From Bdellovibrionia bacterium (lineage in GTDB: Bacteria > Bdellovibrionota > Bdellovibrionia > Bdellovibrionales > UBA1609), in NCBI GenBank assembly GCA_030432925.1, contig JAUILT010000005.1, positions 1 through 58,006 on the forward strand: a DNA stretch of 58,006 nt, written 5' to 3'. Both the position numbers and the translations under genes were made by a program. The notes under the pieces are model-generated. The model ran no database searches and was not told the DNA's origin. It saw only the letters and a program-made list of their open reading frames with translations. Below are positions 11,342 to 55,037 of this stretch, in pieces (within the stretch, counting starts at the first letter, position 1; every line of letters begins with the position of its first letter).

Positions 11342-11346
11342 TGGGT

Positions 11347-11637: not shown

Positions 11638-11651
11638 AATAATCCCCTCCG

Positions 11652-12689: not shown

Positions 12690-12736
12690 AACGCTTACCC
12701 CCTTATCCCCCTGAAGCGTTGCTGCCCACCATATAG

Positions 12737-12751
12737 GCAATCGCCGTACCA
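12737..12751 (-). promoter_or_regulatory. Sigma54 (-24/-12) promoter of the ICE1 sensory operon
   Basis: On the minus strand the sequence reads TTTGGTACGGCGATTGCC. Against the consensus TGGCACG-N4-TTGC it differs at one base only (T for C), with the required GG-N10-GC spacing. Transcription would start near 12725, upstream of the YcaO start at 12689. The operon also encodes a GAFTGA-type activator, so positive autoregulation is likely. Confidence 0.75.
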
Positions 12752-12856
12752 AACATTGTTTGTGTAAAAATGACATGAAAAATCTTGTGAGGGAGAAATT
12801 ATCGAGGTTTCAGCCAACTCCACTTCTTACCGCAAGCTGCTGACTCGTCAAAAAAG

Positions 12857-32997: not shown

Positions 32998-33033
32998 AAA
33001 AAGGCTGATCCAGTTTTGGGTCAGCCTTTTTTG
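32998..33033 (+). terminator. Rho-independent terminator of the ICE2 regulator operon
   Basis: AAAAAGGCTGA pairs with TCAGCCTTTTT, followed by T. The inner part, GATCC-AGTTTT-GGGTC (33007-33022), has the arms and spacing of the ICE2 activator palindrome (GACCC-N6-GGGTC) with one change; this may be chance or a second function. Confidence 0.8.
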
Positions 33034-35097: not shown

Positions 35098-35247
35098 TAG
35101 CCCCTTCCTTTGATTTTCTCAATAACGGCTGAGATCGAAATGAAGGCCACTGTAAACAAATCTTGTCTGTATTCTTTACCAAATGAGTGTGAAAATGCCA
35201 CGGTCTCTTGCTGCTCTGGTTCCATTTTAGTACCACTTTAGCAAGCC

Positions 35248-35263
35248 GACCCAAGTGCGGGTC
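35248..35263. promoter_or_regulatory. ICE2 activator palindrome 1
   Basis: GACCC-N6-GGGTC (GACCCAAGTGCGGGTC), about 240 bases upstream of the predicted start of the sensory operon. The same 16-base architecture recurs at 35293 and 35395. Confidence 0.7.
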
Positions 35264-35292
35264 AGCTACTTTTAAGGGGTTACACCATAATC

Positions 35293-35308
35293 GACCCGAA
35301 GCTGGGTC
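35293..35308. promoter_or_regulatory. ICE2 activator palindrome 2
   Basis: GACCCGAAGCTGGGTC, the same arms and 6-base spacer, 45 bases after the first copy (about four helical turns), so both would face the same side of the DNA. Confidence 0.7.
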
Positions 35309-35394
35309 ATTGGAAATCCAACTGGCGAAATCAGAATTAGTTTTTTGATTTCAACAACATGAAAGTCTCTCCATCGACAAACCCCCAAGGGGAT

Positions 35395-35410
35395 GACCCA
35401 TTCTTGGGTC
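35395..35410. promoter_or_regulatory. ICE2 activator palindrome 3
   Basis: GACCCATTCTTGGGTC, embedded in longer perfect arms GATGACCCA/TGGGTCATC (35392-35413). It lies about 90 bases upstream of the predicted transcription start, a usual distance for a sigma54 enhancer. Confidence 0.75.
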
Positions 35411-35461
35411 ATCAAGTGGGAGCAAATAGGGGTAAGAGTCCATTATTTTTGAGTACAGCAC

Positions 35462-35476
35462 TGGCACACCCCATGC
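35462..35476 (+). promoter_or_regulatory. Sigma54 (-24/-12) promoter of the ICE2 sensory operon
   Basis: TGGCACACCCCATGCT has the full TGGCAC element, GG-N10-GC spacing and TGC at -12. Transcription would start near 35488, 51 bases before the regulator start. Three activator palindromes lie upstream. Confidence 0.75.
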
Positions 35477-35538
35477 TCTATCCGAATCCCGTGTGGGAAC
35501 TTCGGATTCCACGCGCACAAAGAGGAGGGACCAGTACA

Positions 35539-36957
35539 ATGAACTATCGAATTTTAATTGCTGATGACAAACAGCAAGTGCTCGACAACTTCAGGGAAAA
35601 ACTCACCAACCATCTTGATATAGAGCCCATCTTTACAAGTGAGGCCACCGATGTCATTCGCCTAATTCAAGAGGACCCACTGGAATATGCGGTGGTCGTC
35701 GTTGACTACCACTTTGAAGGGCAAAGCCTCAATGGTGCTCAGATCGCCGAAGAAATTTTAAAAATAAATCCAAAACTCATTGTGCTTGTTTGCACGGGGG
35801 ACATGACACGCGAGGCTCCAATCTCATGCCTTAAAGCTGGGATCAGTGATTTCATTCAAAAAGATGAGCCCATTGACAACATCATCGAGAAAATCAGATT
35901 CAACTGCAAAAAGTTTGATGAGCTGGCGAGAGTCGTGACCAAAAACACCAATAGAACCAAAAGGCAAATGGAGAACAGTTCCATCATCAATAAAATTGGA
36001 ATGATTGGCTGGTCAGATTCCATGGCAAAAATTGCTAGTCAAATTTTAAGCTTGAGTGAAAATGGCGGTGATAAGTCCACAGTCTTAATCCGAGGTGAAT
36101 CTGGAACTGGTAAAGAGCTTCTAGCTAAAGCCATTCACGATACCTCATCCAGAAAGGGAAAACCTTTTATAAGCCTTAACTGTGCGGCCATTCCTTCTGG
36201 TTTATTGGAATCAGAACTGTTCGGCCACGAAAAGGGAGCCTTCACTGGTGCCGATAAGAAAAGGCTTGGTAAATTTCAAGCGGCCACCGGCGGCACTATT
36301 TTTCTTGATGAGATTGGAGAAATGCACAAGGATCTACAGGCAAAACTTCTCCGTGTTCTTCAGGAAAAAACCATTGAGCCTGTTGGCTCTCACAAGGCTC
36401 TGTCTATTGATGTTCGAGTCGTGGCTGCGACTCATGTTGATTTAGAAAGTAAAATTAAAACCAAGCAGTTCCGTGAGGATTTATTCTACCGCCTGAATCA
36501 AATTCCAATTTTTGTTCCGGCATTGAGGGATCGACCAGATGACATTAATCCGCTGGTGAATCACTTCATGGAAAAACACCCCGTTGGAAAAAAGAAAAAG
36601 ATGATGTTCAAAACTCTGCAATACTTGCGAGCCTATGATTGGGCTGGAAACATAAGAGACCTTGAAAATACAATTAACCGCTTATTGATTATGACTCCAG
36701 AAGATGAGATTCGGCCAGAAAACTTAGAAGCACGAATTTTTAATGCTTCAAGAAGAGCAGCCGACACTTATCCTCAATTCAAAGAATCGCTAAAAAAAGA
36801 GATGGAAGAAAAAGAAAGGGATTTCTTGGTTTCAAAAATCAGAAGGTTTCCTTCAATTCGAGCTGCCGCCGAAGCTCTTGCTATTCCCAATACGTCTTTG
36901 CAGAGAAAGCTCAATGAGTGGGGCTATGATTCTGAAGGCGAAAGGGCTGCTCTATGA
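35539..36957 (+). CDS. NtrC-type sigma54-activating response regulator (ICE2)
   Basis: 472 aa. Receiver (RILIADDKQQ, Asp about 54 in VVVVDYHFEG), AAA+ domain with Walker A GESGTGKELL, GAFTGA (about residue 232), Walker B FLDEIGEMH, and a Fis-type C-terminal HTH (SIRAAAEALAIPNTSLQRKLNEWG). ATG 35539 follows agaggaggga. It is the first gene of its operon, whereas its ICE1 counterpart is the last. The C-terminal HTH differs from that of ICE1, in line with the different palindromes of the two elements. Confidence 0.93.
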   Translation: MNYRILIADDKQQVLDNFREKLTNHLDIEPIFTSEATDVIRLIQEDPLEYAVVVVDYHFEGQSLNGAQIAEEILKINPKLIVLVCTGDMTREAPISCLKAGISDFIQKDEPIDNIIEKIRFNCKKFDELARVVTKNTNRTKRQMENSSIINKIGMIGWSDSMAKIASQILSLSENGGDKSTVLIRGESGTGKELLAKAIHDTSSRKGKPFISLNCAAIPSGLLESELFGHEKGAFTGADKKRLGKFQAATGGTIFLDEIGEMHKDLQAKLLRVLQEKTIEPVGSHKALSIDVRVVAATHVDLESKIKTKQFREDLFYRLNQIPIFVPALRDRPDDINPLVNHFMEKHPVGKKKKMMFKTLQYLRAYDWAGNIRDLENTINRLLIMTPEDEIRPENLEARIFNASRRAADTYPQFKESLKKEMEEKERDFLVSKIRRFPSIRAAAEALAIPNTSLQRKLNEWGYDSEGERAAL

Positions 36958-38033
36958 GTTTGCTCCAAAGAATTGAGGATTTTATTGCCCCCAAAGCCAT
37001 CAAATATATTGGCGGTCAGGAACACATGGCGATTCAACTTGATATTACCAACGCCTGTAATTTGAGATGTGCTCACTGCTACCATTCTCATCACAAAAAT
37101 AGTGGTGCTCTTGATTTAAATGGCTGGTTTGAGGTTCTGGATCAATATGAGCGGTTTTTAAACAAGTTGAAATTAAAGCCCAGCATTGTTCTTTGCGGAG
37201 GCGAGCCGACGATTAGTCCATACCTCCATCCAATTCTTAAGAGGTTGAATGAGAAATGGGGCAACCCACCCATTTCTATTCTCACCAATGGAACAAAGTT
37301 GACGGACAAGCTACTCAAGGCTCTTGAGCCCTATAACATTGTTTTTCAAGTGTCACTCGATAGCCCCGATGCCAAAAGACACGATGCCGTCCGGGGTGAG
37401 GGTAATTTTGAAAAAGCGATTCAAGGCGCAAGGCTTGCGTCTAAGTATGGAATCAAAACAGATATTCTAGCCGTTTTATCTCAAAAGACCTCAGAGTGGC
37501 TTCCTGAGTTTTTCGATATGGCAAAATCAAATGACTTTGCCGCTATGAACTTTACTCGATTCATACCTCAAGGCTACGGCGAAGAGTACAAAAATAGTGG
37601 TCAAGATGACTCACTCTATGGAAATGAGCTTAGAGATGCACTGATTGAGGTTGTGGCCCTATCAAAAAAGTATGGAATCAAAACTCATAGCGACCTGCCA
37701 CTCTTTCACTTGATTGACCCCGCACTGGGACAAAATGGAAAGTTTGGCTTTCAGGGGCTTGTCGTGGATTACAAAGGCAATCTTAAGGTTTCCAGTCGTG
37801 CCAATTATGTGCTCGGAAATATTCTTGAGCAAGGCTTACAAAACTTATTTTTTAACCACCCTTTAATGAAGGACCTCCGTTCTGGAAATATCAAAGGGTG
37901 CGGTGATTGTATTTATTATTCTCGTTGCGGTGGCGATCGAAATATCAGCTACGCCACAACGGGCAGTTTTTTAGAAAAAGACAAAGGATGCTGGATTGAA
38001 CCAGCTCAAATTAAAGAGGGGAAGATAGCATGA
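36954..38033 (+). CDS. Radical SAM/SPASM-like peptide-modifying enzyme (ICE2)
   Basis: 359 aa. CNLRCAHC (Cys about 35, 39, 42) binds the SAM-cleaving 4Fe-4S cluster; CGGEPTISPYLHP and SILTNGTKL follow as in the family. A SPASM-type C-terminus carries GCGDCIYYSRCGGDR (about 315-326) and a last GCW (about 346), for auxiliary clusters. Enzymes of this type make Cys-derived or C-C crosslinks in RiPP precursors (PqqE, MftC, sactisynthases). It overlaps the regulator by 4 bases and the small peptide gene by 4 bases, so the peptide is the likely substrate. Confidence 0.88.
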   Translation: MSLLQRIEDFIAPKAIKYIGGQEHMAIQLDITNACNLRCAHCYHSHHKNSGALDLNGWFEVLDQYERFLNKLKLKPSIVLCGGEPTISPYLHPILKRLNEKWGNPPISILTNGTKLTDKLLKALEPYNIVFQVSLDSPDAKRHDAVRGEGNFEKAIQGARLASKYGIKTDILAVLSQKTSEWLPEFFDMAKSNDFAAMNFTRFIPQGYGEEYKNSGQDDSLYGNELRDALIEVVALSKKYGIKTHSDLPLFHLIDPALGQNGKFGFQGLVVDYKGNLKVSSRANYVLGNILEQGLQNLFFNHPLMKDLRSGNIKGCGDCIYYSRCGGDRNISYATTGSFLEKDKGCWIEPAQIKEGKIA

Positions 38034-38386
38034 AAAAATCAAGACGAAGTATTTTAGGAATTTTGTCACTGTTGCCGTTTAGCTCAGTTGCATTCGCGCA
38101 AGAGTTCAATTGTATGACTGGATCAAGTCATCTTTACAGCAATACTGGTGGAAATGATCCTGACTATGAAGGAGAAATGCTGAGAAGGCTCAATGAGGGA
38201 ACACTTGGCCCAAAATATTATGACTTTTTAGATCGGCACCAAGTTCCAAGTTACGAGTCCCTAGAAACTCAAGAGTATTCAAGACATAGAGGGCGACTGA
38301 CAAAAGAGTTCATCAGTGATATTTACTCAGGTGGCGGAGTGGCAGCAATGTCATCTGGAGCACTTAGTGGGATTCCACCGCAATAA
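38030..38386 (+). CDS. Small exported peptide with Tat-like leader, candidate rSAM substrate (ICE2)
   Basis: 118 aa. KKSRRSILGILSLLPFSSVAFAQ is a signal peptide with a twin-arginine motif (SRRSIL), suggesting export of a peptide already modified in the cytoplasm. The mature part has one Cys (EFNCMTG), several Tyr (KYYDF, DIYSGGG) and a Gly/Ser/Ala-rich tail (GGGVAAMSSGALSGIPPQ). Start overlaps the radical SAM gene by 4 bases. No known precursor family is recognised. It holds the same slot as the small peptide of ICE1 (11347), directly before the SBP gene. Confidence 0.65.
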   Translation: MKKSRRSILGILSLLPFSSVAFAQEFNCMTGSSHLYSNTGGNDPDYEGEMLRRLNEGTLGPKYYDFLDRHQVPSYESLETQEYSRHRGRLTKEFISDIYSGGGVAAMSSGALSGIPPQ

Positions 38387-38400
38387 TAGGAGCAATTCTA

Positions 38401-39927
38401 ATGAAGAAACTTTTAACTGTATCCCTTGTGATCGTATTTATTAGCACCTTTGGTTATTTTGTTTTGAACCAGAAAGGCAAAAAAGACATGACGTTGAATG
38501 TAGCGTACCCCGGACAATGGAACGATCTTGTTCCCACTCTTCAGCATACGGCCTATGCCGATGCGTTGATGCACAACCAGTTTGAGCCGCTTGTTGTTCT
38601 CGGTAGCAATGGGACAGTGCAACCCATGGCTGCAAAGTCATGGACTGTGAGTGAAGATAAAAAAGTGTTCACCTTTGACATTGACACCAGCCGTAAGTTT
38701 TCAAACGGAGATGGTCTTACCGCCCAGCATTTCAAAGATTCTTGGGAATACAGTTTAAAAGTGGATGCCAAGTCAGCCAATAATAGTCTGCTTGATGTTC
38801 TCTACAAAGTGGAAGGTTACGAAAAGGGCGTGATTTCGATTTCGGGGCTTGAGGTGGTCGATGATAAGACTTTTCGGATTACGTTTAAAAGACCATTCCG
38901 AATGGCTCTCAGTCACCTTGGAGGAACAAGACTTTCGGCCTTCATCATAAAGGATGAAAAGTTTCTGGGCACTGGCCCCTATGTCATCAACGAGGTCAGC
39001 AAAAAAGAGCTGAACTTGACTACAAATGAGTTCAGCCAAGAAACAATTCCTTACAAAAAAGTGAATGTGAAAGTCATGGATAAAGATGAATCCAAAGAAG
39101 CTCTTAAATCCGGCAAAATTGATCTTTATGCCTTTGCTGAAGTGGGACAGGTGGAGTCTTGTGATGACGATTATATGAACTGTGTTTCAGGATCAGAAAA
39201 TAGGCACATGGCTTTGATTCTTAACGGAAAAAAAGGAAGACTTCTCAGTAATCCAAAATACCGGAAGGCCTTTCAATACCTTTTCTTTGAAGGGATCTCC
39301 CTTAGTGAAATTCCTGAGAAAGATCGTGTAAAAAGCCAAATTGATCCACAAATTTTTCTACCCCTTCAGGCTGGCCACTTACCAGAAGATGAGGTGAAGA
39401 CTATTATTAATGATGGCAAACAATATGTGGACGAGTTTATAGAGGCTACCAAAAAGCAGCCACTCTTTCTAGCCCACACTGAAGGGACAAAGTGGTATCG
39501 AGCTTTCCTAAAAAAACGCGGGATTCAACTTTCAGAGAAATCTAAGGAAGTTCCGGGCCCGGAATTAATGAATATGTATTATAAAACTAACGAACCTGAC
39601 GTACTCCCTATTTACTTAAGTGTTTTTAGTGGTGATCCAGACGGAATTTATCACGCTTTAGGTAAAAATGGCGCTATCAGCTCGCCTATGCTTGAGAGAA
39701 AGCTCGTTAATGACCTTCTCGAAGAGGGACGCAAAATTTTGGACTTTGATAAGCTTGATGGACACTACAAAAAAGTTTCCAGAGCTGTTCTCGAAGAGGT
39801 CCCATTCATCCACTTTGGATTTCTTAAGGAAATGGTCATCCTTAGAAAAGATAAGGTGCAAGTGGGCACAAACTATATGAGCCGTGAAACAGGTCGGTTT
39901 ACAGGCTACAGCCCCGTGGGTGGATAA
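38401..39927 (+). CDS. Orphan peptide-binding protein, SBP family 5 (ICE2)
   Basis: 508 aa, OppA/DppA type: DALMHNQFEPLVVLGSNGTV, PMAAKSWTVSEDKKVFTFDI, KFSNGDGLTAQHFKDSWEY and FLGTGPYVINEV. The N-terminal hydrophobic segment (LLTVSLVIVFISTFGYFVL) lacks a clear cleavage site and may anchor it in the inner membrane facing the periplasm. No permease genes are nearby. It ends at the kinase start (1-base overlap), supporting a direct sensor role as in ICE1. Confidence 0.9.
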   Translation: MKKLLTVSLVIVFISTFGYFVLNQKGKKDMTLNVAYPGQWNDLVPTLQHTAYADALMHNQFEPLVVLGSNGTVQPMAAKSWTVSEDKKVFTFDIDTSRKFSNGDGLTAQHFKDSWEYSLKVDAKSANNSLLDVLYKVEGYEKGVISISGLEVVDDKTFRITFKRPFRMALSHLGGTRLSAFIIKDEKFLGTGPYVINEVSKKELNLTTNEFSQETIPYKKVNVKVMDKDESKEALKSGKIDLYAFAEVGQVESCDDDYMNCVSGSENRHMALILNGKKGRLLSNPKYRKAFQYLFFEGISLSEIPEKDRVKSQIDPQIFLPLQAGHLPEDEVKTIINDGKQYVDEFIEATKKQPLFLAHTEGTKWYRAFLKKRGIQLSEKSKEVPGPELMNMYYKTNEPDVLPIYLSVFSGDPDGIYHALGKNGAISSPMLERKLVNDLLEEGRKILDFDKLDGHYKKVSRAVLEEVPFIHFGFLKEMVILRKDKVQVGTNYMSRETGRFTGYSPVGG

Positions 39928-41603
39928 TGTCTAAATCGACTCTTAGCCAATGGTTTTTTAAAAATACAAAGCTACCACTTCTCTTAATCGGGACGGCAGT
40001 GGCTTTAGTCCAAGTTGGCTTTATTTTCTATATCCACAATAAAACCAAAGACGATCAAAAAAGCGCCATTGAAAGTCTGGTTGCTACGATTGCAAATATT
40101 GGGATCGAGCAACGAAACCGCCCACTCCTTGAATCATCGTTTCAATTGGCAATTGATGAGTTGGGCGTAAAATCCATGCTCGTTTGTGAGGGCCAGAGGA
40201 AAGTCTTTTTTCAGCCTATGGGCTTTGGGAGCTGCCCAGTACCACCTCAAGCTAGTCCCTTTGAGTCGGTTATTTCCATTACTCCGTCAGGGTTCAAGAA
40301 TTATCGTCTTTATTTCTATGTAAAACGCTTTCAAGTGGGACCATCACTGATATGGCTTAACATTATCATTCTTGGCTTACTCGGTATTGTATTTCACCTG
40401 ATTTTCCGAATTCAAAGAAAGCTGGCTGAAGATGTGCTCAACCCACTTGAGGATAACTTGTCAGGTGATGAAGAGTTAAAAATTAAGGAACTCAATACCA
40501 TTAAATTAAAATTTGAGGAATATCGCCAATCAAAGGAAAAACAAGCTGTTGCGGGAGCGATTGTCGAGCACAATCTAAGTATTGGTCACAACATTAAATC
40601 CATCCGGCAGACTCTCGATGTGATTATGTCTGGTGAGTTTACCTGTGACCGTCAAAAAAGACGGATAGAAGACCTTTCAAAAAATATAAAAGCCATCATG
40701 GTGAAAATTGCTGATCAAATTCCTGACACGGATAAGGTAAAGCTCATTACCTCTGATGAGACCTTTTTTGACTACCTTCAAAAAGAGAACGAGAAGAAAA
40801 CCAAAGTTAATGTGGTCAACGTATTTGAAATTGCAGTAGAGCAAAAAAATGTTGAGCTGCAAAAGTCAAAAAATAAGCCTAAAATCAAGCTTCGATATAA
40901 CAATAAACTTAAAAACAAATTTCTTGAAGTCGTTGGACCAGAGCTGCGAGACATTCTCTCAAATATGATGAATAACTCCATAGAGGCTGGAGCTAGTAAA
41001 ATTGATATTCAACTCTCAAGACAAGAGAATGATTTAAAGGTCACGATCAAAGACAATGGCTCTGGAATCCCAGAGAAAATCAAAAGCCAAATATTTGATC
41101 GAGGATTCACCAATGGAAAAGAAGGTGGCACAGGATATGGGCTTTACCATGCCCACAAATTTATTGAATCTTGGGGTGGTTCTTTTACTTTGTCCAATGA
41201 AGCCAATGGTGCCACTGAATTTGAAATCCGACTTCCTCTTTGGACTTTACCCAATCTGGGGATTGAAGCTGCTGAAACAGTGGTGGTTTTAGATGATGAT
41301 GAAAAAGTTCATGATTCATGGAAGTCCAAGCTATCCAGAATAAACCCGGCGGCAAGTCTCCTTTCTTTTACCTCACAGAGGCAGTTATCGGAGTGGTTTG
41401 ACACTTGCGATGATTTCAGCGGCCACCTGTTCTTTTTCGATAGTGACCTTGGAGCTGATAGTTCAGACTCAGGAGAAGCCCTTATAGAGAGCTTTGGAAT
41501 TGGTAATATGGCCCATCTTGTGACCAATAACTACAACAGCCCCATTTTAACCAAATGGTGCGCTGAGAGGGGTATTTCGGTGCTTCCAAAGATGACTGTT
41601 TAA
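39927..41603 (+). CDS. Hybrid sensor histidine kinase with C-terminal receiver-like domain (ICE2)
   Basis: 558 aa. TM1 (LPLLLIGTAVALVQVGFIFYI) and TM2 (LIWLNIIILGLLGIVFHLI) bracket a periplasmic region of about 100 residues with two cysteines. Phospho-acceptor region SIGHNIKSIRQTLDVIM (His about 220), HATPase motifs NMMNNSIEAG, IKDNGSGIPE, GGTGYGLYHAHK. The last 110 residues look like a receiver (VVVLDDDEKVHDSW, Asp in FFFDSDLG, Lys in LPKM). ICE1's kinase lacks this part. Last gene of the sensory operon. Confidence 0.9.
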   Translation: MSKSTLSQWFFKNTKLPLLLIGTAVALVQVGFIFYIHNKTKDDQKSAIESLVATIANIGIEQRNRPLLESSFQLAIDELGVKSMLVCEGQRKVFFQPMGFGSCPVPPQASPFESVISITPSGFKNYRLYFYVKRFQVGPSLIWLNIIILGLLGIVFHLIFRIQRKLAEDVLNPLEDNLSGDEELKIKELNTIKLKFEEYRQSKEKQAVAGAIVEHNLSIGHNIKSIRQTLDVIMSGEFTCDRQKRRIEDLSKNIKAIMVKIADQIPDTDKVKLITSDETFFDYLQKENEKKTKVNVVNVFEIAVEQKNVELQKSKNKPKIKLRYNNKLKNKFLEVVGPELRDILSNMMNNSIEAGASKIDIQLSRQENDLKVTIKDNGSGIPEKIKSQIFDRGFTNGKEGGTGYGLYHAHKFIESWGGSFTLSNEANGATEFEIRLPLWTLPNLGIEAAETVVVLDDDEKVHDSWKSKLSRINPAASLLSFTSQRQLSEWFDTCDDFSGHLFFFDSDLGADSSDSGEALIESFGIGNMAHLVTNNYNSPILTKWCAERGISVLPKMTV

Positions 41604-44723: not shown

Positions 44724-44811
44724 GAACCAAAAATGGTTCGCCCCTATTCCCCTTAATTTCTATCTCGCACGAAATCTTTAATTTTTTCGGGTCACGACCC
44801 ATTCATGGTTC
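44724..44811. promoter_or_regulatory. Two ICE2 activator palindromes upstream of the transfer operon
   Basis: GAACC-AAAAAT-GGTTC (44724-44739) and GACCC-ATTCAT-GGTTC (44796-44811) keep the 5-6-5 architecture of the palindromes at 35248, 35293 and 35395; the second combines one GACCC arm with one GGTTC arm. They lie 130-200 bases before the first transfer gene. They link the ICE2 sensor to conjugation in the same way as in ICE1. Confidence 0.65.
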
Positions 44812-44856
44812 ACACCTATAAAATTTTTATTCAATTATTCTAGTTACTTACCAAGT

Positions 44857-44871
44857 TGGCACTCCTGGTCC
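44857..44871 (+). promoter_or_regulatory. Degenerate -24/-12 promoter of the ICE2 transfer operon
   Basis: TTGGCACTCCTGGTCC has a perfect TGGCAC -24 element, but the -12 dinucleotide at the right spacing is CC instead of GC. It lies 46 bases downstream of the second palindrome and 83 bases before the first transfer gene. Confidence 0.4.
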
Positions 44872-44939
44872 TTTCTTCGCTTTAAGTAACCCTGAAGGCA
44901 ATCACGCTTTCCACAAAAGCAAAGGGAGGTTTTTAAACC

Positions 44940-45158
44940 GTGAGAGTGTTTACGTTAAAAAATTGTTTGCGTTGCTGTGAGCGTACCTTGGAACGATGTG
45001 GTCGTTCCTATCGGTGCCGTTCCTGCGGGTTTATTGAAAAAGAAAAAGTAAAGGCTTCGGAATCTGTGGATTCATTCCAAGACCGAATCGAAAAGACGCT
45101 TGATCTTGTTGAAATTTTTGATTTCGGAAAAGGACTACCAGTCAGAGGCCATGAATAA
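44940..45158 (+). CDS. Zinc-ribbon protein, first gene of the ICE2 transfer operon
   Basis: 72 aa from GTG 44940 after aaagggaggt. Cysteine pairs NCLRCCERT and RCRSCGFIEK form a zinc ribbon; the C-terminal half is acidic and helical. Same slot and size as the ICE1 gene at 18943, though the sequence is different. Overlaps the next gene by 8 bases. Confidence 0.7.
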   Translation: MRVFTLKNCLRCCERTLERCGRSYRCRSCGFIEKEKVKASESVDSFQDRIEKTLDLVEIFDFGKGLPVRGHE

Positions 45159-45333
45159 GTCGAAGAAGAATAGGGATATTGAAGAGGAGAATGAAGAAAT
45201 GTGTGAACTAGAGCAAATACGCCAAAAGTGCGAAATGCAAAAAAAGCAGACCGCTTATGAAAAAAGGATTCGTAAGCAGGTCAAAGCAAAACTTGGAAAA
45301 CTTAAAAACCAATATCGAGGAGATATAAATTAA
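45151..45333 (+). CDS. Small charged coiled protein
   Basis: 60 aa from ATG 45151, inside the end of the preceding gene. Highly charged, probably a single helix (DIEEENEEMCELEQIRQKC ... KRIRKQVKAKLGKLKNQY). It occupies the place of the 45-aa protein of ICE1 and shares no clear sequence with it. It overlaps the next start by one base. Confidence 0.5.
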   Translation: MNKSKKNRDIEEENEEMCELEQIRQKCEMQKKQTAYEKRIRKQVKAKLGKLKNQYRGDIN

Positions 45334-45701
45334 TGAATTACCAAAGCAATGAATTAAATCAAAGAGAACATTTTCATCTATGGTGGCACTGCCCGCAAAC
45401 TCAAAACCGAGACATGGCGGGAGTGGCCTACTACGAAGAGGGAGATGGTGATTACCGCCTCATCCTCAATTTTTTTCCTGATAACGTCTACTACCTTAAG
45501 TGCATCGGGGCCGATAGTGACCAGTGTCACTACCGCCTGATTGCAGTCAAACCTAGAGGTGGCAAAGGCAGTCGCTTTTATCAGGGTGATGGAATCTTAA
45601 ACAACAAAGCCAATGAAATCGTCATTCAAGCCGCTCCATTTTCAAAGCTGCTCGTGATGAGTCTCAATGGCATTAAACAAAATAGGGAGAACCGAAACTA
45701 A
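45333..45701 (+). CDS. Conserved protein before VirB2 (ICE2)
   Basis: 122 aa, homologous to the ICE1 protein at 19615 (LWWHCPQTQN, AGVAYYEEGDGDYRL, terminal APFSKLLV). The ribosome site gaggagat precedes ATG 45333. No signal peptide. Conservation in both ICEs marks it as part of the transfer machinery or its control. Confidence 0.7.
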   Translation: MNYQSNELNQREHFHLWWHCPQTQNRDMAGVAYYEEGDGDYRLILNFFPDNVYYLKCIGADSDQCHYRLIAVKPRGGKGSRFYQGDGILNNKANEIVIQAAPFSKLLVMSLNGIKQNRENRN

Positions 45702-46003
45702 TGAAGAAGAATCAAGCATACATATTGTTGGGAATTTTTGCTGTTATTTGTGTTGTCTGTCCAGAAGTGGTTTTTGCTGGAGTCGTCAAATCTGGCTTTG
45801 AGAATAAAATGGCTAACTTACAAAATAAGTTTTCCACCTTCATCTTACCTGTGATGAGTGTGTTGGGGCTTGTGATAGCCGCCATTCTTGCTGCCACTGG
45901 AAACGAAAATGCCAAATCTAAAATTTGGTTTTGTCTTATCGGGAGCGGAGTGGGTTTCCTCGCGCCGTACATTATTGGCTGGATGCAAGGAATCTTGAAC
46001 TAA
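45701..46003 (+). CDS. virB2: VirB2-like pilin (ICE2)
   Basis: 100 aa with leader (YILLGIFAVICVVCPEVVFAG) and two hydrophobic helices (STFILPVMSVLGLVIAAILAATG, WFCLIGSGVGFLAPYIIGW). It aligns end to end with the ICE1 pilin, including AAILAATG and IIGW.QG. Confidence 0.85.
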   Translation: MKKNQAYILLGIFAVICVVCPEVVFAGVVKSGFENKMANLQNKFSTFILPVMSVLGLVIAAILAATGNENAKSKIWFCLIGSGVGFLAPYIIGWMQGILN

Positions 46004-46320
46004 TGGGTCTTGATCGGTCAGTAGTTCATAGAAACTTGGACTCCAAAGTCAAAATCGCAGGGATGGAACTTTTCGACATCATCACCGTGGGGGCATTTGC
46101 CTCCACGATGAACCTCATCTTTGGACAAACCAATATGGCAGGGATCATGGTGTTTGGGCTTCCCGCCCTTTTAGCCTTTGTCATTTATTTAGGAAAGAAA
46201 GGAAAGCCAGAGAGGTATTTACAAGACCTTATCCGGTTTTCTGTATTTCCGGGGGTCTTTTGCGTCGGTGAAGAATTGAGCAATGAAACAAGGAGGCGGC
46301 AAGTTGTCGTTAAGTCCTAA
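46003..46320 (+). CDS. virB3: VirB3-like protein (ICE2)
   Basis: 105 aa from ATG 46003, overlapping the pilin stop by one base. VVHRNLDSKVKIAGMELFDI aligns with ICE1 TIYRNLDAKFKIGGVDASDL; two hydrophobic stretches and KKGKPERYLQDLIRF follow. It runs about 13 residues longer than the ICE1 protein at the C-terminus, over the start of VirB4. Confidence 0.85.
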   Translation: MGLDRSVVHRNLDSKVKIAGMELFDIITVGAFASTMNLIFGQTNMAGIMVFGLPALLAFVIYLGKKGKPERYLQDLIRFSVFPGVFCVGEELSNETRRRQVVVKS

Positions 46321-47701
46321 TAGCATCGGTGATTTTTTAAATTTGTGGCATTTCTTTGATGACCATCTCGTCTTTGGCGATGGTTCCATTGGATGCGGTT
46401 TTCGTCTTCAGGGAAAAGATATTTCTTGTGCAACCGAGGAAGAGGTCAATCAGTTCACAAGAAAACTTGAAAACCTTATCACCAGTCTTGATGAGGGACT
46501 GTCTTTACAGTTTTTCTACAAGCTGACATCCAATGTGGAAAACACGATTGAATCCCATAAAATCTTGTCTCAGAGCTGTCCACTTGACAACTATGATTTG
46601 ATTTTGTCTGCCAGAGAAAATCATTTACGAGATAAGATGGGGCGAGGTCATTTCTTTAGACCTGAAATCTATCTGTTTCTTCGTGGGCAAAAGTTTTCAT
46701 TCAAAAAAAAGGGGCTTTTTCAAAATGAAAAAGAGTTCACCCAGATTCAAGAAAGTGAATTTAAAACTCATTTGGAAAACTTTGAGAGATCCATCAGCCA
46801 ATTGGAGTCATCCCTTCGAGATTGTAATCTATTGGGGGATCGACTTTCAAAAGATGAGTGGTTCGGCCTTTTGTACGAGCACTTCAACTTATCGCGCTCT
46901 GAAAAGCACGACCCACCGGCTTTAAAGGGGCCAAAGGTCTTTTCTCCAAGCTCACTGTTATCTCAATTGTTACTGAGTGATGTTTCTTTGGGAAAAAAGC
47001 AGATTGAAATTGGTGATTGTAAGTTTCGCACCATTTCGCTTAAGACATTGCCCGATGAGACTCATGCAGGACTTATCAATGGGCTTTTAGGCTTGTCGTT
47101 TCACTGTTGGATTTCTCAGGTCGTTAGAATTTGTGACCAGTCCAAGGAATATTCATCTTTGCAACTGAAGCGGCGGGTGGCTCATTCCATGGCCAGTGGT
47201 CAGAGTAATGTGAGTGACCTAGAGAGTGAGTCTAAGCTTGGGCAAATCGAGGGGCTTTTATCAGAGCTGATTGAGAGTTCTGAGAAAATTGTGGAATCCG
47301 ATCTAAGCGTTGTTGTCTGGGGTAAAACCGATGTGGAACTTGAAGAAAAATGTGATGAAGTTCTAAGGACTTTTAAAAAGCTCAACCACTCTGAAGGACT
47401 CGTTGAGACCTTTGCCACGTTTGATGCTTTTATCAAAGTGACCCCCGGAGTGTGTGGGATGAATCGTCCTAAAAAAATGAAGTCGTCAAACTTTTCACAC
47501 TTGGTCCCAAGTTTTTCCTATTGGATGGGGAACAAAAAACCAGCTTGTCTTTTACCCAATCGTGACAATGTTCTCGTCTCAGTGGACCCTTTTTCGCCGG
47601 AGCTACCCAACTGGAATGGGTTTATTATTGGATCGAGCGGATCGGGGAAATCCTTCAGTATTAACCAATTGATTTTGATGTTCATAGGGGATCAGACATG
47701 A
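46304..47701 (+). CDS. virB4: VirB4 N-terminal part including Walker A (ICE2, split gene)
   Basis: About 465 aa. I choose TTG 46304 because AAGGAGG lies 7 bases upstream and the spacing to VFGDGSIG then resembles ICE1; ATG 46283 is the alternative. It matches ICE1 VirB4 throughout (VAHSMASGQSNVSDLESESKL, ELPNWNGFIIGSSGSGKSFSINQL) but stops at TGA 47699-47701, some 15 residues after Walker A. The rest is encoded by the overlapping frame at 47698. Confidence 0.85.
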   Translation: MSLSPNSIGDFLNLWHFFDDHLVFGDGSIGCGFRLQGKDISCATEEEVNQFTRKLENLITSLDEGLSLQFFYKLTSNVENTIESHKILSQSCPLDNYDLILSARENHLRDKMGRGHFFRPEIYLFLRGQKFSFKKKGLFQNEKEFTQIQESEFKTHLENFERSISQLESSLRDCNLLGDRLSKDEWFGLLYEHFNLSRSEKHDPPALKGPKVFSPSSLLSQLLLSDVSLGKKQIEIGDCKFRTISLKTLPDETHAGLINGLLGLSFHCWISQVVRICDQSKEYSSLQLKRRVAHSMASGQSNVSDLESESKLGQIEGLLSELIESSEKIVESDLSVVVWGKTDVELEEKCDEVLRTFKKLNHSEGLVETFATFDAFIKVTPGVCGMNRPKKMKSSNFSHLVPSFSYWMGNKKPACLLPNRDNVLVSVDPFSPELPNWNGFIIGSSGSGKSFSINQLILMFIGDQT

Positions 47702-48768
47702 GTGCTCATTCCCAAGGATTTTCAAAATCAAAAGTGGTTTGGATTGACAACGGAGCCTCGTCAAAGGGGCTTGTTGACTCTCTTGGCGGACAGTTCATTG
47801 ACCTCGCCCTTGATAGCGGTCTTGTTCTCAATGCTTTTCAACTGGATTCTGGTGAAACCCAAGTGTCACCGACCAAAAAGAAGCTTCTTCTGGGAGTTAT
47901 TGAATCCATTTGCAAAGAGGATGATTCAAAAGGGCTTCCAAAGAGGGAAAAAGCCCTTTTAGAGCAAGCCATTGCGGACACCTACGATCAAAAGAAGGGT
48001 CAGTCACCGACCATGAGCGATTTTAGGAAGGTTTTGGAAAATCACCGTCTTGAAGAGATGAGAAAGTATGCCGACATTTTGTATTCATGGACTGGAGACA
48101 CGGCTTATGGAAGGCTTCTTGATGGGCAAACCAACATTGAACTTTCAAAGTCTCTGGTTTCCATTGAAGTTAAGGGTCTTGATGTTTACCCTGACTTGCA
48201 GCGTGTTCTATTACTGATTCTCACTGAATACATAATGAATGAGGCATCAAAGAACCCCAGTCAGCGGTATTTGTTAATTGTTGATGAGATTTGGAAGGTG
48301 CTGCAAAACGACAGTGCTGCCCAGTTCATTATTGAGTGCTACCGTACAATGCGCAAATTTTACGGGGGCATTTGGGGAATCTCCCAATCCATCAAAGATT
48401 TTATGTTCGACCCGGAAATTGCTGCGGCCATTATGCAGAATACTCCCAGTCGAATCATTTTAAAGCAGCGTGGTGTTGATTGGGAGGAGTTTCAAAATAT
48501 TTTATCTCTGAATGATACTGAGATTGAAGCGGTCAAGTCTCTTCGCTCAGAAAAAGGACGTTTTTCGGAGCACCTATTTATTCAGGATGAGAACAAGGCC
48601 ATTTTAAAAATTGAGCCAGATCCACTTTCTTATTGGATCTGTACCACCGATCCAAAAGACAAAGCGGTCATTAACGAATTTAAAGAAAAATATCCACACC
48701 TCAATCATTTGCAGGTTTTGGAGAAAATTACCCAGTTTCAAAAAATAAAGGAGGAGAAACCTAAGTGA
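47698..48768 (+). CDS. virB4: VirB4 C-terminal part including Walker B (ICE2, split gene)
   Basis: 356 aa starting at an ATGA overlap with the first half. After about 12 unmatched residues it aligns with ICE1 VirB4 from KVVWIDNGASS onward: MRKYADILYSWTGDTAYGRLLDGQ, Walker B YLLIVDEIWKVL (about residue 190), and PDPLSYWICTT near the end. Either the protein works as two chains made by translational coupling or a small insertion has broken the gene. No other residue loss is apparent. Confidence 0.85.
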   Translation: MSAHSQGFSKSKVVWIDNGASSKGLVDSLGGQFIDLALDSGLVLNAFQLDSGETQVSPTKKKLLLGVIESICKEDDSKGLPKREKALLEQAIADTYDQKKGQSPTMSDFRKVLENHRLEEMRKYADILYSWTGDTAYGRLLDGQTNIELSKSLVSIEVKGLDVYPDLQRVLLLILTEYIMNEASKNPSQRYLLIVDEIWKVLQNDSAAQFIIECYRTMRKFYGGIWGISQSIKDFMFDPEIAAAIMQNTPSRIILKQRGVDWEEFQNILSLNDTEIEAVKSLRSEKGRFSEHLFIQDENKAILKIEPDPLSYWICTTDPKDKAVINEFKEKYPHLNHLQVLEKITQFQKIKEEKPK

Positions 48769-49457
48769 AGATTCTAATAACCCCATTGTGTGCCATTACA
48801 ATTGCCTTAAGTCCCGTCAAGAGTCACGCCATGTTCGGTGCCGACGCTGCGGCGATGATACCTTACCTAATTAAGATTATTACTCAGGCAATCAAGCAAT
48901 ATAAGCAGATGAAAATAATTTATAACAATGCAAAACATCATAAGGAAATGTTTAAGCAACTCAATGACGGTCTGTCGGAAGCCATTGGTCTTTTAGAAAG
49001 CCTTCCCATTGAGGATGAGAATATTTTAGGTCATTTGCAATCATTCAAGAAAGCCATGAACGAAATTGAAATGCTCTATGGTGAGGTGCCAAAAGGCAAA
49101 GAGGAGATGCTTTTAAAGCTCCACGATCAAACTGTGGCTGAAAGTATCAAAATTGCCAATTCGCTCAAGGTGTATGCAAAGTCCCAAGAGGCCAATTCTA
49201 ACCGAGTGGCTAGGAATGCTGGGAGGATGAGCCCCAAGGGAGCTGTTAGAAGCAACCTTGAAACTAATGCAGCGATCTTGCACACCCTTAACCAGTTATT
49301 AAAAGTAAATGGGCAAATTTTAAAACTCCAGAGTGAAACTTTGGCAATGAATAATAAGTCAGCTAAAGAGTCCAATTTTCACTTTCAAAAAGTCACCAAA
49401 GACCTTGGCAGTAGCTTTAAGGGATTTGAAGCAACATTTGGGACACCGACGTTTTAA
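48765..49457 (+). CDS. virB5: VirB5-like protein (ICE2)
   Basis: 230 aa from GTG 48765, 4-base overlap with VirB4, after aaggaggag. Signal peptide (KILITPLCAITIALSPVKSHA), then long helices with KQYKQMKIIYNNAKHH and SPKGAVRSNLETNAAI. In ICE1 the homologous gene has ATT in the equivalent place. Confidence 0.82.
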   Translation: MKILITPLCAITIALSPVKSHAMFGADAAAMIPYLIKIITQAIKQYKQMKIIYNNAKHHKEMFKQLNDGLSEAIGLLESLPIEDENILGHLQSFKKAMNEIEMLYGEVPKGKEEMLLKLHDQTVAESIKIANSLKVYAKSQEANSNRVARNAGRMSPKGAVRSNLETNAAILHTLNQLLKVNGQILKLQSETLAMNNKSAKESNFHFQKVTKDLGSSFKGFEATFGTPTF

Positions 49458-50461
49458 TGTACGATTGGCTACCGGAAGTTTGCAGAGAATTAAGAGGAAA
49501 CCTAATCAACATCTATTGGTTGTCGATTGTTCCTTTAACCCTCTTGTTGATTATTTTTGAATTTTTTAAATTGCCAGAACGACAGCCCGATGCACTAAAG
49601 GTCATAAAGCGAGCAGCAATTTCCATGATTCTCCTTATCAGTTTTGATGAGGTGATCCACACCATTGCAATGGTCGGTGATGGAATAGTTGAAGCGATCA
49701 GTCCAAAGCCCCATATAAATCAGGTATTAGATGAGGCGTGGGCTCATATTCAGACCATTGAGCTGAGTTGGCATAAGTTTAAAGAAACAATCATTTGGAT
49801 CTTTAGTCTACTGGCATTTATTTTTGCCTATCTTGGCGCTTTCTTAGCTGATGCGATGGTGCATTTCTGCTGGGCGATCCTCTTTGTTCTCTCACCGCTG
49901 ATGATTTTGGCTTATATACCAGAAGGGACAGCTAAAATTGCAACGGGTCTGTACCGAAGTCTTTGCACCGTTATGGCGTGGAAAGTGCTTTGGTGTGTGC
50001 TCGGCGTGATTTTGTTGAAGTTCACAGTCAATGCACCGATTGCCGATGGCAACGACTACAATGCCATTCTTCTGATTGTCATCAATCTCTTTATTGGCAT
50101 CAGTATGTTGCTTGTTCCCATTGCAACAAAAGCCTTTTTATCTGCTGACTTTGCTGCCTTCTCTGGAGGACTTGCCGCTGTTCCAGCCATTGCTTCTCAG
50201 AAAATCATAATGAAGCAGCTTAAAAAAGCAGGAAAGTTTTCAGCCGATAGAGGCAAGAAGATGGCAAGCCAAGGGTTCCGCTCTAGTGGCCGCGCTCTTA
50301 AAGATTTTGGACGTTTCGCTAGTGAAAAGCACCAGAATTTTAAGAATACGAGGGGTGCCACAAATTCGCCAAGCCAAAGGTTCCAAGAAAAACCTTATGA
50401 GAGGGGCTATAGAACCTCTTTTCAAAATAATAGTCAAAACAAGGGAGAAAAACATAAATGA
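49457..50461 (+). CDS. virB6: VirB6-like polytopic membrane protein (ICE2)
   Basis: 334 aa with the same hydrophobic pattern as ICE1 VirB6 (IYWLSIVPLTLLLIIFEFF, IFSLLAFIFAYLGAFLADAMVHFCWAILFVLSPLMILAYIPEGTA) and a basic, polar C-terminus (SFQNNSQNKGEKHK). Starts one base before the end of the VirB5 stop. Confidence 0.85.
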   Translation: MYDWLPEVCRELRGNLINIYWLSIVPLTLLLIIFEFFKLPERQPDALKVIKRAAISMILLISFDEVIHTIAMVGDGIVEAISPKPHINQVLDEAWAHIQTIELSWHKFKETIIWIFSLLAFIFAYLGAFLADAMVHFCWAILFVLSPLMILAYIPEGTAKIATGLYRSLCTVMAWKVLWCVLGVILLKFTVNAPIADGNDYNAILLIVINLFIGISMLLVPIATKAFLSADFAAFSGGLAAVPAIASQKIIMKQLKKAGKFSADRGKKMASQGFRSSGRALKDFGRFASEKHQNFKNTRGATNSPSQRFQEKPYERGYRTSFQNNSQNKGEKHK

Positions 50462-51051
50462 TTAAGATTCAATCTAAGCGATTAGAGCCAGTCAATCAAT
50501 GGGTGAAAATTAACCTTTTGATGAAACACTTACGGCTCGTGATTTTTGGTCTATTAATTTCAAATTTTATTCTTATGGGTGTTTGTATTTACTTGTTGAA
50601 CAAGGACACACTCGTCGTTGCTCTCACCGAATCCGATCAACTCTACTTTGTAGGAAAAAGGCAAAGCGTTGAACTTGGTGAGGCTGATGTTGAAGAGACT
50701 GCCAAAAGGTTCGTCCGAGAGCGGTATCAGTGGAAAAGCTATAGTGTGGAGTCCCTTGTTCGCAATGTTTCACCTTTTGTCACCTACGGCCTTTTAAAAA
50801 AGATGACCCAGCAATTTGAAAAATCAAAGGAGTTTGTAGAGAAAAACGCCATCTCCCAAGATGTTGTCATTCAAGCTGTGAATCTTAAAGACGATCACAT
50901 TGAGGTTAAAATAGACCGCGTGGTTTCAGTCGGGAAAAAAGTCAAAGCCGTCCAACCTCTTGAAGTCCATTTGGAGATTATTAAGGACACACCTAACAAG
51001 TGGAACCTTAAAGGGCTCTATGTCAACGCCATCACGGAGTTTAATCAATGA
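50458..51051 (+). CDS. virB8: VirB8/TraE-like protein (ICE2)
   Basis: 197 aa with one TM (LVIFGLLISNFILMGVCIYLL) and a periplasmic domain (LYFVGKRQ ... TAKRFVRERYQWKSYSVESL ... VNLKDDHIEVKIDRVVSVGKK). It aligns in layout with the ICE1 protein at 24616. It overlaps neighbours by 4 bases. Confidence 0.8.
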   Translation: MIKIQSKRLEPVNQWVKINLLMKHLRLVIFGLLISNFILMGVCIYLLNKDTLVVALTESDQLYFVGKRQSVELGEADVEETAKRFVRERYQWKSYSVESLVRNVSPFVTYGLLKKMTQQFEKSKEFVEKNAISQDVVIQAVNLKDDHIEVKIDRVVSVGKKVKAVQPLEVHLEIIKDTPNKWNLKGLYVNAITEFNQ

Positions 51052-51761
51052 TTAGATTTTTCACTTGTTTAATTTTATGTCTTTTTTGTCAGGTTTCTTT
51101 AGGGAAAGTCAGAACCATTGAAATGGATGCTGATGGAATGAAAACTATCACTCTTGCTATGGGACGCTCCACTGTATTGCAGTTTGCCGACACCCCAAAA
51201 AAGATCGTTAGTGGAAATTCCAACTATTTTAATATCGAGTTTACTGGGAATGATGTAACCATCCAGCCTCTTTCTCCAGTCTCCAGTAACTTGTTTATTT
51301 ATAGTGGGCATCGACGTTTTGGATTTCTTTTAAAAGTCTGCCGCTGCAACACTTACGATGATCTGGTCAAAGTCTATTGGAAATACCCTAAAAAGCAAGT
51401 TGCAAAAAAGAAGGTCAAGAAAAGTCAATTTCCAAAACTTTCTTTTAAAGCTGGAAAATCTGAGGTGTATGTCTCCAATGTCTTTTATCACAAATTTAAT
51501 GATGTCTATGTGGTGGATGGAAGCTTTGTTTTGCCAAAAGGCGACAAAGCTCCCAAGGCCAAAGATTTTTGGGTCACTCGCTCCGGCAAAAAGCTCACCG
51601 TTTTAGACGTGGTTTTTTCTGATGAGTCGAAGTTCAAAAAATACCAGAACATTAAGTTCCGGGTATTTTTAAAACTTGTCCGTCCTGTGGACTTCACCTT
51701 GAGAACCAAGATCGGAAAACAAGAGGGCAAAGCCATTATCAGAAAGAGGTGGTATCAATGA
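51048..51761 (+). CDS. virB9: VirB9/TraK-like protein (ICE2)
   Basis: 237 aa with signal peptide (IRFFTCLILCLFCQVSLG). KTITLAMGRSTVLQFADTPKKIVSGNSNYFNIEF and VSSNLFIYSGHRRFGFLLK match the ICE1 protein (VICGNKNYFNIEK, ISTNLTVLSGGRRYLFYL). It is a member of the outer core complex. Confidence 0.8.
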   Translation: MIRFFTCLILCLFCQVSLGKVRTIEMDADGMKTITLAMGRSTVLQFADTPKKIVSGNSNYFNIEFTGNDVTIQPLSPVSSNLFIYSGHRRFGFLLKVCRCNTYDDLVKVYWKYPKKQVAKKKVKKSQFPKLSFKAGKSEVYVSNVFYHKFNDVYVVDGSFVLPKGDKAPKAKDFWVTRSGKKLTVLDVVFSDESKFKKYQNIKFRVFLKLVRPVDFTLRTKIGKQEGKAIIRKRWYQ

Positions 51762-52780
51762 AAATTCAAATAAAAAAATGGTTTTCATTGGTTAAAAAGG
51801 CTCCATCTCAGTTGAGGGCTTGGCTTAAAGGCTTGGTGGAAAAAGTAAGGTCTCCATTCGTTAAAAGGTTTCCAGATAAGGAGACTTGGAATCTTGGAGC
51901 CATACTTATTTGGGGTGCAGCCACATTTTTAAGTGTTGTTTTCGTTAGTAGCTTGTTTTTTTCACCTGAAGATTCCGGTAGCAGCATTACCACTGTCTAT
52001 TCAGCTAAAGCTGAAGACCAAGGCAGTGATGTGGAAGGTCTTAGCGAATCAGATGGTGAGGCTTCAGCTCATGTGAAAGGCATTTCCAAAGGGCGGGGCC
52101 ATCGTCTTTCTGGGGATGATCCCGCACCGAGGAAAGGAAAAGGAGCTTCCATTAAATATAAGGGAACCCAAGTCTTGGTACGAGCCAGCTCTCAAGGAGA
52201 CCGCGCCCTTCCAACGGGGACCAACTTTGTTGGAAAGCTTCTCTCACAAATTGACACCCGTCACTCTGATAAATTTGTGAGAGTTCTTTTGCCCTTTGGT
52301 GGAAAATTCAGGGACCGAGTCGGTATTCCAAAGAATACCGTTCTTTTGGGCTCGGTCAGCTATTCTGGTCGAGGCAAAAGGGTTTTCTTGAACCTCCACA
52401 CCGGAGTTCTGCCCGACGGGAGCGAGATTAAAATTGAGGCCACCGCCATGGACTCAAAAGACTTCTCGCCCGGTCTTATAGGTAGCTATCACAGTGCATT
52501 TGGTAGCAGGGCTGGAGCCACACTTGGCTTCTCATTTGCTGCTGGTGCCAGTGATGTGTTGCAGGAAAGGGAAGCTCTCGGTCAGGGCTTTAACCAAACC
52601 GTTACCAAAAAAGCCACTATGAAAAATGCTGTTCTCAACGGCATCTCTGAGTTTTCAAAGACAGAAGGAGCATTTCAACTAGAAGAGGCTCGCAATGAGG
52701 GAGCCTACGTCACACTCAATCAGGGTAAAGAGGTCATCGTTACCCTCACTAAAACTTTTAAAAATGGAGAATCAAATTAA
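51758..52780 (+). CDS. virB10: VirB10/TraB-like protein (ICE2)
   Basis: 340 aa from ATG 51758, 4-base overlap with VirB9. Basic cytoplasmic N-terminus, TM (LGAILIWGAATFLSVVFVSSLFF), linker, and conserved domain (GKLLSQIDTRHSDKFVRVLLP, PKNTVLLGSVSYSGRGKRVFL, KKATMKNAVLNGISEF, a terminal QGKEVIVTLTKTF). Confidence 0.85.
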   Translation: MKIQIKKWFSLVKKAPSQLRAWLKGLVEKVRSPFVKRFPDKETWNLGAILIWGAATFLSVVFVSSLFFSPEDSGSSITTVYSAKAEDQGSDVEGLSESDGEASAHVKGISKGRGHRLSGDDPAPRKGKGASIKYKGTQVLVRASSQGDRALPTGTNFVGKLLSQIDTRHSDKFVRVLLPFGGKFRDRVGIPKNTVLLGSVSYSGRGKRVFLNLHTGVLPDGSEIKIEATAMDSKDFSPGLIGSYHSAFGSRAGATLGFSFAAGASDVLQEREALGQGFNQTVTKKATMKNAVLNGISEFSKTEGAFQLEEARNEGAYVTLNQGKEVIVTLTKTFKNGESN

Positions 52781-54279: not shown

Positions 54280-55037
54280 GTCAAAAACCCCATCGGTTTA
54301 CTTTAATGAATCGGGATATAAGGCTCTTGAGGTACTTGTTTGCGACCAAGGGAGCTACTGAACGACAGATTCATCGAGATATTTTTGGCAAAGTTACGGG
54401 CCAAGTTGTTAGAAAACGTATTGGGATATTAAAGAATCAAGGATTGATTGATAGCGGTTCTGTGTCTCTAGCAAGGCCCACTTCTGTGTACTTTACTTCG
54501 AGAAAGGCTCTACGCTCGCGAACCATCTACGATTTCGACCTTCTACGGATGGAGGCTCGCTCTAGTAATCCCACCCATGAGTTGTCACTAGGCGATATTC
54601 GCCATAAGTGTTCGAGCCTAGCAGGCCTTGAGCATTACCTGACCGAAAATGAACTTCAATCAGAGCTTTGGGGAGGAAAGGAATATAGATACAAAGACTT
54701 TTTGAGACTGAACAGTGATGGGTTTATGAGAATCAAGCTAGGGAAAAATACGTTCTCTGGAGCAATCGAATACGAACAATCCGAAAAGGGAAAAAGCCAA
54801 TATGAAGCTTTGTTTTCCGAATATTACCTTTCTCCCGATATTTCTTTTGTTTTTTATATTACTGGCAGCCAGAAAATTTTGGAATCCATTTTACGCCACG
54901 ATAAAAATGTAAGAGAAAACCGAAAAGCTATTATTTTCGGATCGACGTTGGATAATTTTCTTAATTCTAATGAGTTTATTTCTTTAGAGAGTTCATCAGA
55001 AAGAATTTTGGAGCTTCCATTGCTGGAGAAAAGTTGA
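54276..55037 (+). CDS. Replication-relaxation family protein (ICE2)
   Basis: 253 aa from GTG 54276, 4-base overlap. Winged helix (RDIRLLRYLFATKGATERQIHRDIF), then THELSLGDIRHKCSSL and RLNSDGFMRIKLGKNTFSGAIEYEQSEKGKSQYEALFSEYY, matching the ICE1 protein (RLNSDAVLLL, YEASKKS). Candidate relaxase or relaxosome protein; followed by an inverted repeat. Confidence 0.62.
   Translation: MSQKPHRFTLMNRDIRLLRYLFATKGATERQIHRDIFGKVTGQVVRKRIGILKNQGLIDSGSVSLARPTSVYFTSRKALRSRTIYDFDLLRMEARSSNPTHELSLGDIRHKCSSLAGLEHYLTENELQSELWGGKEYRYKDFLRLNSDGFMRIKLGKNTFSGAIEYEQSEKGKSQYEALFSEYYLSPDISFVFYITGSQKILESILRHDKNVRENRKAIIFGSTLDNFLNSNEFISLESSSERILELPLLEKS

Follow-up and report, generated by a model that had tools for sequence, protein, structure and literature searches.

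A conserved cassette of radical SAM enzyme, secreted peptide, SBP and kinase on a Bdellovibrionia ICE: a candidate self-inducing signalling circuit

The second of two tandem ICEs (ICE2) of a Bdellovibrionia bacterium carries a cassette encoding a sigma54-activating response regulator, a radical SAM (rSAM) enzyme, a small secreted peptide, an SBP and a sensor kinase. This arrangement is real, conserved and unusual, and finding this gene order again in other families and in another phylum excludes that it arose by chance. The window analysed, 58,006 nucleotides in length, corresponds to contig C97 of genome G000 (3.04 Mb), which among named genomes is closest to Bdellovibrionales MAGs. We propose that the cassette may form an element-borne, self-inducing signalling circuit, a proposal that we consider reasonably probable.

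The ICE2 cassette and its relatives

Open reading frames and domain matches placed all five genes of the predicted ICE2 operon where they were expected (Table 1), on one strand, with adjacent genes overlapping or at most 15 bp apart. Only its beginning had to be corrected, as position 35462, previously given as the start, holds a -24/-12 promoter and no start codon, and the regulator begins at 35539. The kinase, the receiver-AAA+ activator and the -24/-12 target promoter together constitute a sigma54-dependent two-component system.

Table 1. Features of the window (coordinates in nucleotides of the window)
Feature	Position	Strand	Domains or remarks
ICE1 counterpart cassette	7085..12776	-	PF02624, PF00496, PF02518, PF00158
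ICE1 regulator	7085-8542	-	
ICE1 kinase	8460-9860	-	
ICE1 SBP	9860-11362	-	
ICE1 peptide	11347-11637	-	
ICE1 YcaO	11652-12776	-	
Three inverted repeats, TG[AT]CCC-N6-GGG[AT]CA type; proposed regulator sites	35247-35264, 35292-35309, 35394-35411 (span 35247..35412)	.	spacing same in relatives
Sigma54-type -24/-12 promoter TGGCACACCCCATGCT	35462..35477	+	28.5 of 30, p=0.003
Response regulator with sigma54-activating AAA+ domain	35539..36957	+	PF00072 (Response_reg), PF00158 (Sigma54_activat), GAFTGA motif
Radical SAM enzyme, partial SPASM-type C-terminus	36954..38033	+	PF04055; invariant CX3CX2C, C316/C319/C325/C346
Secreted precursor peptide, 118 aa	38030..38386	+	signal-like N-terminus; no family above cut-off
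SBP_bac_5 protein, N-terminal membrane helix; proposed receptor	38401..39927	+	PF00496, 117.5 bits
Sensor kinase, C-terminal receiver-like stretch	39927..41603	+	PF02518 (HATPase_c)
Inverted repeat and TTGGCAC block before conjugation operon; possible second regulator target	44795..44872	+	kept in two related ICEs
ICE2 type IV secretion (conjugation) operon	44940..55037	+	TraC, P-loop_TraG, TrbI, FtsK-type domains

A search with the rSAM enzyme of 141 genomes of the order and 84,980 species genomes revealed the order enzyme, small secreted peptide, SBP and kinase in about 22 rSAM loci, distributed between Bdellovibrionota and Elusimicrobia. The regulator is the first gene in the Bdellovibrionales cassettes; the Elusimicrobia loci (L096-L100 and L105) share the same core, mostly without an adjacent regulator, and encode peptides of 54-63 residues. 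The core order was also found in L103/L173, L102/L175, L106/L168, L176, L177 and L179. As predicted, the enzyme and peptide genes travel together: every intact locus read has both, and an intact rSAM enzyme gene devoid of a small peptide gene, named beforehand as the observation that would count against the pairing, was found in none of the loci read. Not considered intact were loci at contig ends (L044, L107) or containing Ns (L043), decayed remnants (L087/L088) and a transposase-broken copy. The latter is a second rSAM cassette of the same genome (L032, contig C142), 86% identical to that of ICE2; over 2.7 kb it is identical to L033 (G091:C5), from a different MAG, implying either a shared element or mis-binning. 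Neither was counted as intact, because a transposase gene stands in place of the peptide tail and of most of the SBP. Among 72,556 plasmid records the rSAM enzyme had no match.

The cassette of ICE1 encodes a YcaO protein that retains the typical ATP-site residues (the E, R, N-G and ERD motifs). Its order, YcaO, peptide, SBP, kinase and regulator, recurs in about 18 further loci, of which some are truncated by contig ends (about 19 in all). A second, divergent YcaO lineage of about 8 loci (L204-L211) shows the order peptide, SBP, YcaO and kinase; the peptide assignment is unsure in L204 and L208. As the rSAM cassettes (about 22 loci) span two phyla and the YcaO cassettes number about 27 loci, the prediction of a general system type was supported.

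The original prediction also proposed that the chemistry had been swapped between the two ICEs and the sensing chain kept, and this was not supported. In a tree of 55 SBPs the rSAM-linked proteins (support 100/100) and the YcaO-linked proteins (100/99) form two separate clades, joined to each other as against ordinary SBPs (91/86), which implies that the enzyme class changed once and early, and no later replacement of the enzyme only is seen. This tree was made without long branches; a first, larger quick tree that included them did not resolve the grouping. Gene order and kinase architecture differ between the two cassette types, and the ICE1 and ICE2 backbones are collinear and carry their different cassettes in opposite orientation, so that it is the whole cassette that differs. 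Enzyme, peptide, SBP, kinase and regulator thus appear to have diverged together. When a profile of both SBP types was run against 369 genomes of the phylum, matches at E<=1e-38 were nearly all in cassettes, and other SBPs appeared from about 3e-29; no enzyme was found near two of the new loci that it identified (L174 and L180).

It is quite possible, though we somewhat doubt it, that the rSAM and YcaO cassettes are instead independent, convergent assemblies with no single ancestral sensing chain, as suggested by their different gene orders, kinase types and peptide families, and by SBP clades that lie far apart and are held together by the 91/86 node. However, the sensor regions of the two kinase types are related (profile comparison, E 2e-5, probability 76%), and both cassette types occupy the same ICE backbone and are preceded by sigma54 promoters, which is easier to reconcile with a common origin.

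Enzyme, peptide tail and putative receptor

The radical SAM core of the ICE2 enzyme is clear (PF04055, 87 bits), with C35/C39/C42 as its CX3CX2C motif. The predicted SPASM domain was confirmed in part. One auxiliary-cluster cysteine set, CX2CX5C...C (C316/C319/C325/C346), is retained and, like the core cysteines, is invariant in 11 homologues; however, the usual SPASM site of another cluster cysteine is Ser-Ser in these enzymes and the SPASM model scores 16.3 bits, under its cut-off of 21.5, so that the enzyme lacks a SPASM domain with two auxiliary cluster sites. None of the curated rSAM maturase families of NCBIfam was matched at cut-off (the best, TIGR04053, reached 114 bits versus a cut-off of 395), and the proteins of solved structure closest to it in sequence are SkfB and anSME.

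As in a RiPP locus, the small precursor gene adjoins that of the enzyme, and this arrangement is conserved across loci. The rSAM-linked peptide constitutes a conserved family in 10 intact Bdellovibrionales cassettes, and those of Bdellovibrionota begin with a signal-like N-terminus, continue into a middle part in which a Tyr-Tyr pair is conserved, and end in a short tail, e.g. SGA[IL]SIG. Its dN/dS of about 0.09-0.15, with dS near saturation, indicates purifying selection. An AlphaFold2 model of the 118-aa peptide, of modest confidence (pLDDT 68), shows a signal helix, helices at residues 46-104 and a disordered tail, and has no relative in the PDB; we propose the tail from about residue 105 as the substrate region. 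The peptide families of ICE1 and ICE2 are unrelated, as had been predicted, since a profile comparison aligned their signal peptides only.

The composition of the tails follows the class of the enzyme. YcaO-linked tails are Ser/Thr-Cys-rich, whereas rSAM-linked tails mostly have no Cys: at least one was present in the last 26 residues of 16 of the 23 YcaO-linked peptides and of 2 of the 21 rSAM-linked ones (p=6e-5, a value that ignores kinship). The divergent lineage L204-L211 also has tails rich in Gly, Cys and Ser, such as GCGSSVGNGCFAN (L207) and VNCSSSVGGGC (L206). That the tails vary with the enzyme class in this way favours an action of the enzyme on the peptide, and the best indirect evidence that it would act on the tail is that residues used by YcaO enzymes occur in two YcaO-linked peptide families without recognizable similarity to each other. 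As rSAM-type tails generally have no Cys, sactipeptide-type thioethers are less likely.

The SBP has the SBP_bac_5 fold, as judged by PF00496 and by an AlphaFold2 model (pLDDT 82) whose PDB matches include the peptide- or opine-binding proteins AgaA, MppA, DppA and OppA; its profile also matches PrgZ, an enterococcal pheromone-binding protein. No permease or ATPase gene was found inside the cassettes read, and a single BPD_transp_1 gene lies near L066. In the simplest reading, which draws on the analogy of LuxP-LuxQ, the SBP would be a receptor beside the kinase. The kinase shows two N-terminal hydrophobic helices, read from its sequence, and a C-terminal receiver-like stretch that was recognized by eye and has no Pfam match.

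Promoters, repeats and the conjugative elements

A near-consensus -24/-12 promoter directly precedes the first gene in 11/11 Bdellovibrionales rSAM cassettes (each p<=0.003 versus shuffles) and is present before most YcaO cassettes; its absence from the Elusimicrobia rSAM cassettes, most of which also have no regulator gene beside them, speaks against the proposed circuit. Most Bdellovibrionales rSAM cassettes additionally carry two or three TG[AT]CCC-N6-GGG[AT]CA repeats at fixed distances: in eight of the 11 (the window, L032, L034-L036 and L039-L041) the nearest repeat lies 66-68 bp from the -24 element and the remaining ones mostly at 130-250 bp, L037/L038 have distal repeats only, and L042 has none. 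The exact form GACCC-N6-GGGTC occurs three times upstream of the ICE2 cassette and nowhere else in the window; chance alone would give 0.55 promoter-repeat pairs per 58 kb at the less strict threshold that was applied. Phased repeats together with a -24/-12 promoter before the cassette lead us to predict autoinduction, and this layout is the one expected if the sigma54 activator drives its own operon. We discarded a near-repeat at 33006, which sits in a terminator-like hairpin, and the exact copies of the operator repeat in other parts of the host genome (contigs C16, C54 and C113), which revealed no convincing regulon.

The two ICEs lie in tandem behind a tRNA-Pro gene (window 4276-57509), and share homologous conjugation genes, an HTH gene and an integrase in collinear order, with identities of 25-51% (HTH 44%, TraC/VirB4 47-51%, integrase 46%). 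No repeat of the tRNA-Pro region that might delimit the ICEs was seen in the window. The predicted location of these modules in ICEs was confirmed by the type IV secretion and integrase genes present in the window and close to most of the cassettes whose flanks were long enough; the rSAM pair L037/L038 had no type IV secretion gene nearby among those tested.

It is plausible that the cassette regulator controls the conjugation genes of its ICE. Operons leading to TraD have candidate promoters with repeats upstream in L036 (26.0 of 30; repeats at 80 and 135 bp), L040 (27.0; 145 bp) and L199 (28.5; 88 bp), those of L036 and L040 being located after the kinase gene; a promoter after the kinase gene of L039 (27.0) has no repeat. 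A point against this control is that the -12 part before the type IV secretion operon is atypical in ICE2 and its two relatives.

Several other features of these elements were observed. TraC/VirB4 of ICE2 is split into two ORFs (46283-48768), as it is in the relatives L202 and L203, and is a single ORF in ICE1 (20542-22959). Between cassette and type IV secretion operon, ICE2 encodes proteins of 465 and 504 aa with no Pfam match (41856-44721), the first behind a promoter-like site at 41809 (26.5 of 30). ICE1 encodes two proteins similar to each other (13575-14405 and 16080-16976), with a conserved end containing HSHP/HTHP; by eye, they are possibly metal-dependent peptidase-like. A small exported family of the GVYxxCxKWTT.. 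type is found downstream of the kinase in L034 (3170-3607), L039 (13423-13935) and L040 (12612-13043), in the last two behind candidate sigma54 promoters.

A possible signalling circuit and its place among known systems

In the circuit that we propose, the radical SAM enzyme would modify the peptide in the cytoplasm before export, probably in its short disordered C-terminal tail, and the signal peptide would then export the modified product. The SBP, acting as a receptor and not as part of a transporter, would catch the exported tail, whole or in part, in the periplasm and pass the signal to the hybrid kinase, which would phosphorylate the sigma54 activator. This activator would bind the phased inverted repeats and fire its own -24/-12 promoter, a positive feedback, and probably also the conjugation genes of the same ICE. 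The YcaO cassettes would be a parallel version whose peptide tails carry azoline-type chemistry. Two points go against this proposal: few RiPPs combine Sec export of the precursor with an enzyme in the cytoplasm, and the cassette holds no protease or outer-membrane exporter gene.

Other roles for the same genes were considered. The circuit might sense the state of its own envelope or secretion, with no role between cells, as producer and receptor share one periplasm and no dedicated outer-membrane release is encoded; we regard this as unlikely, although the variable tails and the linkage to elements, which would suit a private signal between carriers, are indirect arguments. Alternatively, the peptide might serve the SBP-kinase sensor as an accessory protein, with the enzyme acting on another substrate or on a small molecule sensed by the SBP. 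In agreement with this, the peptide is larger than many precursors and its middle part is structured, and the ligands of OppA-type proteins include non-peptides such as opines; nevertheless, the gene of the enzyme always lies next to that of the peptide, the tails differ in composition with the enzyme class, and the Elusimicrobia peptides are short, making such a role improbable. We also find it distinctly unlikely that the product is a secreted antimicrobial or effector peptide, with the SBP, kinase and regulator as its self-inducing control and signalling secondary to killing or competition between elements. The RiPP-type enzyme-precursor pair and the self-inducing layout would fit it, and many RiPP enzymes serve antimicrobials (PMC13361665), but the cassettes read contain no immunity or export gene and the receptor and regulator are the only conserved partners.

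Extending the signalling proposal further, the cassettes may represent a widespread Gram-negative class in which a modified-peptide autoinducer of a mobile element works with a periplasmic receptor, a kinase and a sigma54 activator, and in which a private signal controls conjugation; we advance this tentatively, as a reading on the doubtful side of an even balance. Under it, one and the same function would be served by enzyme classes that are unrelated (radical SAM, YcaO) and by peptides that are likewise unrelated. The proposal makes concrete predictions on substrate, receptor, operator and target promoter, and predatory and uncultured lineages offer many unstudied enzyme-precursor pairs.

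We found no description of the enzyme-peptide-SBP-kinase combination in the open-access literature; should our proposal be true, the cassette would embody a kind of peptide signalling not yet described from Gram-negative bacteria. It is chiefly in Gram-positive bacteria that conjugation controlled by pheromones and autoinduction by modified peptides are known. Nisin, a modified peptide, likewise switches on its own operon by way of a two-component system (NisK/NisR); however, it has lanthipeptide chemistry, an OmpR-type regulator and a dedicated exporter and immunity, and no SBP receptor. In LuxP-LuxQ a periplasmic binding protein also acts with a hybrid kinase, but the ligand is AI-2, the SBP belongs to another fold family and no peptide is involved.

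Conjugation is controlled by pheromones in PrgZ/cCF10 of pCF10 and RapI-PhrI of ICEBs1, which share with the cassette a mobile element, a secreted peptide and an effect on transfer and, in pCF10, an OppA-type binding protein (PMC6540685). In contrast to the proposed cassette, these systems are Gram-positive, their peptides are not modified by an element-encoded RiPP enzyme, and the peptide is imported to a cytoplasmic regulator instead of being read by a kinase (PMC6540685). The Rgg/SHP-controlled RaS-RiPPs of streptococci similarly tie radical SAM peptide chemistry to quorum sensing, but there the unmodified SHP is the signal and the RiPP the output, with no SBP-kinase chain and no ICE module (PMC13361665). 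Bufferins, MNIO-modified RiPPs, resemble the cassette peptides as Gram-negative RiPP precursors with Sec signal peptides, and differ in their enzyme superfamily, their metal-binding role and the lack of a sensor chain (PMC12452194). Radical SAM or YcaO chemistry coupled to an SBP-kinase receptor in a conserved cassette on Gram-negative ICEs would, if true, give mobile elements a new means of sensing themselves.
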